DNA from: Paenibacillus alvei
GTDB lineage: Bacteria > Bacillota > Bacilli > Paenibacillales > NBRC-103111
Direction of reading: 5' to 3'
DNA length: 64,000 nucleotides
Assembly: GCA_945881905.1 (NCBI GenBank)
Contig: CAMCVV010000002.1
Location: 62,001 to 126,000, forward strand
Of this stretch, positions 16,542 to 61,276 are shown one piece after another. The notes under the pieces were generated by a model. It saw nothing but the letters and a program-made list of their open reading frames with translations. It was not told the DNA's origin and did not search any database. Position numbers and translations under genes: made by a program. Each line of letters starts with the position of its first letter. Position 1 is the first letter of the stretch.

Positions 16542-16865
16542 TTATACGACTTTGGAATCATTCGTTTCGAACCAAAAATCAAGCACTTTGCTCGACATGA
16601 TCCGCTGTGTGATGAATTCAATTTGATGTTCTGTGAAATACGAAGACCAATCTATCGAAAGCTCGTTACAAATTTCCACAATCGTCAAGAGCTCGGACCA
16701 AGCCACATATCGTTTATACCAAAAAAATTGGGGATGTTCCACCATATAAGGATATAAATCATCAAACGCTGTATGCTTACAATCTAGCGCTCTTTCAAAA
16801 TGGATCTTGGCTTCAGAAAGCTTGCTTACGAAGTACTCGATTGACATCTTTGCATCTTGTTCCAT
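16542..16865 (-). CDS. hypothetical protein, 107 aa
   Basis: Unrecognised helical protein of 107 residues, rich in aromatic residues (FFWYKRYVAW, DWSSYF, LDFWFE). The ATG at 16865 follows AGGAGG closely and is chosen over an in-frame ATG at 16907, which has no ribosome site. No membrane segment or catalytic motif is seen. It lies upstream of its own hairpin terminator and downstream of xpt on the same strand. Confidence 0.7.
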   Translation of the reverse strand: MEQDAKMSIEYFVSKLSEAKIHFERALDCKHTAFDDLYPYMVEHPQFFWYKRYVAWSELLTIVEICNELSIDWSSYFTEHQIEFITQRIMSSKVLDFWFETNDSKVV

Positions 16866-16971
16866 GTATTTCATCCTCCTTCGCGCTACCTTCTTAGTAT
16901 AATTCATAATTAGTCGTCCGAAAAGGTGTATTCTCCATGAAAATATGAGGAGAAGGGTACGAACACTTTAA

Positions 16972-17541
16972 TTATGTAAAAGTAATTCTGCCTTCTGCTA
17001 ATGAAGATATTCGCACCAATGATTCAAAGCGAATCCCTTGGTCTCTAATTGAATCGGCACCTGCTTGAAAAGTTTTTTCGATGACGATACCTACACCTAC
17101 AACATGCGCTTGAGCTTTCTCGATAATTCGTATTAATCCTTTGGCCGCATCACCGTTAGCAATGATGTCATCGATCAACAGAACACGCTCCCCTGCGCAG
17201 AGAAAATCATGCGATACCATAATGTCAGTAACAATCCCTTTTGTAAAAGAAGGGACTCTTTCATGATATGTGTGCTGATTCATCGTTAAAGTTTTTTTCC
17301 GTCGCGCAAAAACTAATGGAACGCCTAATGCATAAGCTGTTGAGAAACCAATAGGAATACCTGAAGATTCTATTGTCAATACTTTATCAATAGAGTGATC
17401 CTTGAATCGATAAGCAAATTCACTACCCATCTCCATGATCAAGCGAGGATTGACTTGATGATTCAATATGGCATCTAGATTAAGTACTTGATCAGAGGTC
17501 ACAACGCCATGTTCTTGTATGATTTGTTTAAGTGAATCCAG
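16972..17541 (-). CDS. xpt: xanthine phosphoribosyltransferase, apparent CTG start
   Basis: The protein contains the PRPP-binding motif VLLIDDIIANGDA and the flanking IESSGIP and VFARRKK segments of Xpt, which makes XMP from xanthine and PRPP in purine salvage. The first ATG/GTG in frame is a GTG at 17502, but homology extends upstream: LDSLKQIIQEHGVVTSDQ matches the N-terminus of Bacillus Xpt. The frame is closed by TGA just above it, and the only codon in the right place is CTG at 17541, nine bases after GGAGG. This gives 189 residues, close to the 194 of B. subtilis. No purine riboswitch is visible upstream. Confidence 0.88.
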   Translation of the reverse strand: MDSLKQIIQEHGVVTSDQVLNLDAILNHQVNPRLIMEMGSEFAYRFKDHSIDKVLTIESSGIPIGFSTAYALGVPLVFARRKKTLTMNQHTYHERVPSFTKGIVTDIMVSHDFLCAGERVLLIDDIIANGDAAKGLIRIIEKAQAHVVGVGIVIEKTFQAGADSIRDQGIRFESLVRISSLAEGRITFT

Positions 17542-17745
17542 TTGTCATCGCCTCCAAGCCTCTCTATTATGAGTAAATTAACATATGTAGTCGATAGATT
17601 ACAAGAGGTAATTGCTGAAAGATCCGTTTTGTTTCTTTTATTTACATTGATATGCCATAATTCCTATTTGTGGTTACTGCGAATTTGTATTATGATAAGA
17701 TATATCGGAATATCTTTTTGAGATTATAGCGAAAGAGGAAGAGTA

Positions 17746-18441
17746 ATGGAAAATAATATAAAATTAATCGCTATTTGTGCTTTGCTTATATGTATCGTTC
17801 CCGTGCTTACAAGTTGCAATTGGACTTCATCTAGAACGGACGATAAGCTTTCACAAGTCACCACGCCCCAAAAAGACCGTATGCACACAACATTTAATTC
17901 TTCAACATTACCTAATGGGGACCTCAAAGATCACAAAGGCAAACTAGACGGTGCCGTTTCTGCAGCGGAAACGAAAGCAGCTCCATCGAATACATCGGAT
18001 ATCTCATCAAAAATCAATTCAATTGAAGATAAGAAGTCAGAAATCACCGAACCTTATAATGCTTCTCAAACTTCTCTGATCGGATTGAAATTAGGTGATC
18101 CCTTGTCTAGCTTATTTAAACTATGGGGTCAAGCAAATGAAGTGATTTATGTCAATGATCTCGAGGAACCTTATTCCATCTATAGGTATAGTGGTTTTTC
18201 AATCGGTGGAGACGTCTCCGATACGGTATCATTTATCACGATCGATTCTGCAATGATTGATGTCCGCTTAAACGGATTAATGGTCGGTCAAAAAGTAGAA
18301 GATGCGATTTCAATCTTAGGTACTCCCACAACAAACACTAATTTTATTTTGAAATATCAAACACATTCAACGATTCTTAAATTAGACGTAGACCCTAGCG
18401 AAAATGTAATCCTTTCGATCAAGTTATTTACTACTCAATAA
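17746..18441 (+). CDS. putative lipoprotein with two GLxxG repeats
   Basis: A 231-residue secreted protein with a signal peptide and lipobox VLTSC, then a Ser/Thr/Lys-rich linker (about 25-105) and a C-terminal domain. The domain contains two related segments, GLKLGDPLSSLFKLWGQ and GLMVGQKVEDAISILGTP, the pattern of small BLIP/SmpA-like or PDZ-adjacent folds found in exported proteins. A specific family is not assigned. The start is ATG after AAAGAGGAAG. It ends exactly where the long shared terminator begins. Confidence 0.75.
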   Translation: MENNIKLIAICALLICIVPVLTSCNWTSSRTDDKLSQVTTPQKDRMHTTFNSSTLPNGDLKDHKGKLDGAVSAAETKAAPSNTSDISSKINSIEDKKSEITEPYNASQTSLIGLKLGDPLSSLFKLWGQANEVIYVNDLEEPYSIYRYSGFSIGGDVSDTVSFITIDSAMIDVRLNGLMVGQKVEDAISILGTPTTNTNFILKYQTHSTILKLDVDPSENVILSIKLFTTQ

Positions 18442-60855: not shown

Positions 60856-61276
60856 AATTCAAAACTCCATTCACTCTCGAATTTATGATCATGTGTGAAT
60901 TACATAGAAGTGCTCGAATTGATTGCGCCAAGATTTCAAGAATATAAACATGTTAGAGCGAATAATAAACCCGCCAATGCCGTCCAGTTTTAAAGTTTCA
61001 AACCTGCCTTAGCAGGTGGGTGTCCGCAGTTTTGTTTTTGAAGTCCCTTTTCGAGGGCGTATCAGCCACATTACAATATAAGTCTCCCTAGAAACAGTCA
61101 TTGGTTTAAAACTAATCAAACTGAAAACGAACATCGCAGGAATTACTTTTCTATTTCTTATTATAGAATGCATTGATCACTTTTTCAACTGGTAGCAACT
61201 GTTTAATTTTGAAAACACTGGCTTGGGATAGATAACTACACCATGAGAATTTCATGGTTGTGACTTCATGCGTTAT
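60856..61276. other. 421-base non-coding gap with a small hairpin
   Basis: No credible gene was found on either strand. ACCTGC and GCAGGT (61002-61017) form a hairpin with a CTTA loop, followed by a stretch (61020-61075) with a GC-rich region that resembles a transposon end or a decayed gene end. Two AT-rich blocks follow. The right part contains the upstream region of fsa on one side and the end of the YesL-like gene on the other. Confidence 0.4.

Follow-up and report, generated by a model that had tools for sequence, protein, structure and literature searches.

In the 64,000-nucleotide stretch of DNA analyzed here (the window), the purine-salvage gene for xanthine phosphoribosyltransferase, xpt, has most likely undergone a genuine change of its start codon from ATG to CTG, with weak initiation predicted at the CTG (Table 1). 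Along the minus strand, GGAGG (17555-17551) is followed by nine bases, CTG (17541-17539), and then GATTCACTTAAACAA. The initial annotation had described a TGA just above the gene, a CTG at the expected start, GGAGG nine bases upstream of it, and homology extending 13 residues upstream of the first ATG or GTG; all of these can be read in the sequence, and the Bacillus subtilis Xpt structure 2fxv and the models TIGR01744 and NF006671 align from residue 2 onward. Its proposal that xpt begins at the CTG is itself supported by the ATG found in relatives, a common upstream context, the Shine-Dalgarno sequence, and the manner in which codons upstream of GTG 17502 have evolved. This GTG, the first ATG, GTG or TTG in the frame, opens an ORF of only 176 amino acids ending at 16972. 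With a CTG at the homologous position, no ATG, GTG or TTG before codon 14, and a suitable Shine-Dalgarno sequence, xpt has the sequence characteristics of a CUG-start gene.

Table 1. Features in and around the xpt start region (window coordinates)
Feature	Position	Strand	Remark
xpt CDS, xanthine phosphoribosyltransferase	16972..17541	minus	189 aa if CTG is the start; stop included
GTG, first canonical start in frame	17500..17502	minus	aligns with codon 14 of the homologous protein; lacks a Shine-Dalgarno
Short out-of-frame ORF, ATG...TAA	17528..17548	minus	ATGACAACTGGATTCACTTAA, 6 codons plus stop; probably incidental
CTG, putative start codon	17539..17541	minus	homologous codon is ATG in 114/117 other sequences
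In-frame TGA closing the frame above CTG	17545..17547	minus	two codons upstream of CTG
GGAGG, Shine-Dalgarno core	17551..17555	minus	9 nt before CTG
Upstream block common to g16 relatives	17559..17604	minus	TTGTAA, 18 nt, TAATTT, then ACTCATAATAGA; probably promoter and transcription start

Read from the CTG, the ORF scores 219.8 bits against TIGR01744 (cut-off 164.45) and 238.9 bits against NF006671 of NCBIfam (cut-off 177), in both cases over profile positions 2-188, and no other sequence in the whole genome exceeds the TIGR01744 cut-off. Both curated cut-offs for xanthine phosphoribosyltransferase are thus surpassed, and structure 2fxv aligns with the product over residues 2-188. To judge from the sequence, xpt is probably an ordinary and still functional member of its family. 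The predicted structure, which was built from nine sequences and is weak enough to serve as a hint only, has a mean pLDDT of 68.7 (52 for the first ten residues) and places a low-confidence helix at residues 2-11. In B. subtilis, xpt starts with ATG and lies behind a guanine riboswitch, together with pbuX. The B. subtilis protein (2fxv, 1y0b) is homologous to the Xpt described here but, unlike that system, xpt in this genome is not part of a guanine-riboswitch xpt-pbuX operon, as neither the riboswitch upstream nor pbuX anywhere in the genome gave a match. Rfam searches for a purine riboswitch upstream of xpt found none, either at gathering level across the window or up to an E-value of 5 in 17480-17760; the lone match in the latter region, a chance snoRNA hit (E 2.1), was rejected as a structured leader. 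Across the whole window, Rfam gives a gathering-level match only to a 6S RNA, at 60964-61145 on the minus strand. Downstream, xpt adjoins a gene on the same strand (16542-16907), a homologous ORF of which also lies beside xpt in relative L018; a 106-residue stretch of this gene had no match in an NCBIfam search.

To compare the start codon across relatives, xpt was collected from 72 of the 103 other genomes of the family and from several of the same order. Of 98 named xpt loci found, 80 were added, many of them being the same genes as in the family-genome set; these are mainly from Paenibacillus, with others from Saccharibacillus, Gorillibacterium and one unclassified Bacilli MAG. Six of 175 loci were dropped, namely two copies of the gene's own locus (L001, L035), three distant matches from its own genome (L002, L003, L005), and one infC (L095), and the remaining 169 loci comprise 118 distinct sequences, including that of the window. 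Of the other 117, 114 have ATG in place of the CTG and one (L141, Saccharibacillus qingshengii) has GTG; two are unreadable at this codon, and CTG occurs in none (0 of 117, the two unreadable sequences included). In L072, one of the unreadable pair, the alignment is shifted by one residue, and an ATG stands directly before GAA GAA. In the other, L053, the reading frame is interrupted, and a GTG preceded by GGGAGG lies in a different frame. As a separate observation, this L053 gene (genome G001, contig C130, base 1272 of the match orientation) apparently starts at that GTG and breaks frame after about 50 codons, making it a pseudogene or an assembly error. Homology fixes the position of the start; the alignment is not due to chance.

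Codons 2-13, upstream of GTG 17502, behave as coding sequence. In comparisons of codons 2-13 with 34 relatives, which are not independent of one another, 51 codons were identical, 191 synonymous and 166 non-synonymous, such that 191 of the 357 changed codons are synonymous. When the same DNA is read in the two shifted frames, synonymous changes number 1 versus 336 non-synonymous and 2 versus 310. Leu4 and Ile8 occur in all 115 readable relatives and Lys5 in 114 of the 115, while each of the remaining residues from 2 to 14 is found in at least one relative. In the same 34 relatives, dN for codons 2-13 is 0.31-0.52, as compared with 0.20-0.26 for the rest of the gene (dS is not computable there), which could reflect some relaxation or the variability usual at N termini. 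The constraint seen in codons 2-13 may be older than the switch. This evidence bears on translation from GTG 17502, which would yield a protein shorter by 13 residues and which we consider highly improbable. That GTG is the first canonical start codon in frame, and the protein begun there still passes both curated cut-offs (204.9 bits for TIGR01744, 225.5 bits for NF006671). Such a start would, however, sacrifice the nearly invariant Leu4, Lys5 and Ile8, along with the low-confidence predicted helix, and it has no Shine-Dalgarno sequence, that sequence lying instead at the upstream position: over 19 nt each, the duplex energy is -2.7 kcal/mol for GTG 17502 versus -13.0 kcal/mol for the CTG.

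The region upstream of the CTG has also been conserved. In the g16 relatives, the upstream DNA is homologous and in register, and reads TTGAAA, 18 nt, TAACTT, ACTCATAATAGA and then the Shine-Dalgarno sequence; TTGTAA and TAATTT stand in the places of TTGAAA and TAACTT here. From -48 to -19 (17589-17560), L007, L100 and L058 each match this sequence at 25 of 30 bases, and L096 and L102 at 24, as against 63-69% identity in the coding sequence for the eight relatives compared. Ungapped counts for L117, L116 and L036 (12, 5 and 10 of 30) are probably out of register. Because the upstream DNA stays in register with that of the closest relatives, an ATG appears to have changed to CTG in this lineage. 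The block is probably a promoter and transcription start region. An alternative promoter, TCGACT-17-CATAAT, is one of five promoter-like sites, where shuffled sequences give 3.6. The g16 relatives themselves (for instance, L007 and L100) carry a conserved block, GGGACTTGAAACCTAC...ATATGGTAACTTACTCATAATA, before xpt, which is likely a promoter and possibly a regulator site. In the case of L065 (G003), GATGACAA stands directly before the start codon and is followed by TGGA, exactly as at 17549-17537 of the window; the genera differ, and the match is probably due to chance.

The Shine-Dalgarno sequence itself is unremarkable. Computed against a typed 16S tail, the duplex energy for the 25 nt upstream of the CTG is -13.4 kcal/mol, which ranks 15th of 118 and is tied with three others, so compensation of the CTG by a strikingly stronger site was rejected. 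The gap from GGAGG to the start ranges from 5 to 12 nt with a mode of 8 (116 sequences including this one, with no GGAGG or GGGGG core found in 15), which places the 9 nt observed here within range. The start region (-18 to +40) folds at -5.7 kcal/mol, and those of three relatives at -3.9, -8.2 and -12.2 kcal/mol. A short out-of-frame ATG frame does overlap the CTG, as the initial annotation had noted, and runs from 17548 to 17528; its suggested role as a leader has no support, since the ATG sits 2 nt after GGAGG and is absent from the homologous upstream DNA of the g16 relatives. Two nucleotides between a Shine-Dalgarno sequence and an ATG are too few. Stray ATGs at most 16 nt upstream are also seen in other relatives whose xpt begins with an ordinary ATG, and we know of no slippery arrangement at the short ORF. 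Thus, despite the overlap, initiation at ATG 17548 followed by frameshifting or re-initiation into xpt is an extremely remote prospect, and the short ORF is probably incidental.

It had been suggested that a conserved ATG in related genomes would expose the CTG as a sequencing error. That ATG is indeed present, but its standing as proof of error fails, because the closest relatives are at most 74% identical in protein; at such distances, it shows a lineage-specific change. A search of genome contigs with the Xpt protein found no close relative, and the CTG is therefore known from one assembly. This, together with the ATG or GTG in every readable relative, speaks for a sequencing or assembly error, or for a mutation confined to the strain that was sequenced, in which case the true codon, or that of the population, would be ATG. 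We nonetheless consider this unlikely. The assembly (2.40 Mb in 87 contigs) is 99.59% complete with 0% contamination, and the xpt frame is intact. Moreover, the number of CUG-started genes expected per genome, about 0.5 (0.024% of roughly 2,200 genes, the gene count being an estimate), would exceed the number of start codons with a wrong first base to be expected in a typical short-read assembly. With about 0.5 expected, finding one such gene is no surprise.

A survey of starts elsewhere in the genome covered 400 kb in stretches plus the window (464 kb, about 19%), compared against 800 kb of two relatives and the xpt loci L006-L034 and L096-L175. It yielded 105 ORFs that have ortholog support and a closed 5' end, of which 40 lie in the window; the unfiltered listing gave 44 of 142 ORFs, many being antisense shadows. 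In six of the 105, four or more identical residues precede the first canonical start. Upon inspection, these proved to be xpt (CTG), infC (ATT), three ORFs (o328, o362, o1355) in which the conserved sequence immediately precedes an ATG, and o18, the antisense shadow of a gene for 1,093 residues. Homology past the first canonical start is therefore restricted to xpt and infC among the 105, and only xpt has a CTG, in a test that is blind to CTG starts preceded, or closely followed, by a canonical codon. A cruder tally of codons opposite a relative's ATG, in which 24 of the 105 ORFs had no start-like codon opposite an ATG, returned two CTG, two ATT and two ATC. One CTG is that of xpt; the other five codons were rejected as starts, as they follow an earlier canonical start and lie opposite internal methionines. 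No sign of an unusual initiation system was seen among the 105 ORFs sampled from about 464 kb. The infC gene (L177, 16001-16535, plus strand) has no ATG, GTG or TTG at its homologous start and reads GGAGGTGGAAG ATT ATT AGT AAG GAC, the paired ATT codons following GGAGG; the aligned relative likewise has RWKIISKDH ahead of its first methionine. ATT is a known start of infC, and either the first or the second ATT is likely the start here.

It is quite unlikely that the CTG, although real, leaves xpt effectively off, with little protein made and the gene in early decay within a reduced genome. The size of the genome (2.40 Mb, where the 103 other genomes of the family are listed at 4.1-10.3 Mb, some of them incomplete), the weakness of CUG as a start, and the lack of any match to the pbuX profile would all fit such silencing, whereas the intact frame and conserved core of xpt, and the upstream block that has been kept, would not. 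Two other genomes without a pbuX match, G043 and G018, retain ATG in xpt (L031/L036 and L032/L037), so the absence of pbuX does not explain the start change. The curated pbuX cut-off is passed in 11 of the 39 genomes searched, and this genome has one PF00860 permease. Relaxed selection through lost xanthine uptake was set aside as weak, with eight of the 38 other searched genomes likewise lacking a pbuX match.

We infer, then, that a single A-to-C substitution would have converted the ancestral ATG of xpt to CTG in this lineage and would be fixed in the population. The inherited Shine-Dalgarno sequence, at its 9-nt spacing, would place the 30S subunit on the CTG, where the initiator fMet-tRNA would pair with codon positions 2 and 3. 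Given such pairing, Xpt would begin with fMet and keep its conserved N-terminal segment, at a yield much lower than from ATG. A gene resting on CTG would be poorly expressed, as CUG output is 0.86% of that from AUG, a value reportedly measured in E. coli. The figure is from a study cited in PMC11497404, which also points to weak first-position pairing, puts CUG at 0.024% of the initiation codons of bacteria, and describes a complex, seen by cryo-EM, of CUG and a variant fMet-tRNA positioned in the normal frame. A literature search for a xanthine phosphoribosyltransferase with a CTG start codon found no paper; PMC11445065 concerns E. coli carbohydrate regulators. Rare switches from AUG to CUG in prokaryotes (PMC5622118) are likewise single-base changes at the start of conserved genes, although that work used triplets of closely related genomes and the nearest relative here is 74% identical in protein. 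As described in PMC13009471, infC, ccpN and cvfC1 also use codons other than AUG, GUG and UUG behind a Shine-Dalgarno sequence in a Bacillota genome, with extended motifs in Staphylococcus aureus, and S. aureus reporters with such starts reach about 10% of their AUG versions in poor medium, with ccpN attaining as much as 30% in rich medium. Those starts are conserved and lower expression for regulation according to the same paper, whereas the CTG of xpt was found only in this genome (0 of 117, two unreadable), unlike a conserved regulatory start of the infC type. It is very unlikely that the CTG is a fixed and selected low-gain start of a reduced-genome lineage, one that keeps the Xpt dose very low, may respond to the levels of initiation factors and may be one of several scattered, tolerated non-canonical starts.

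A start such as the CTG of xpt is uncommon but to be expected, one more instance of a known phenomenon. Gene callers restricted to ATG, GTG and TTG would cut 13 residues from Xpt, among them several that hardly vary. Beyond this, the finding has little consequence. A genuine switch from ATG to CTG, weakly initiated, is the reading we prefer; it would make xpt a clean comparative case of a rare start-codon switch in which the Shine-Dalgarno sequence is intact.
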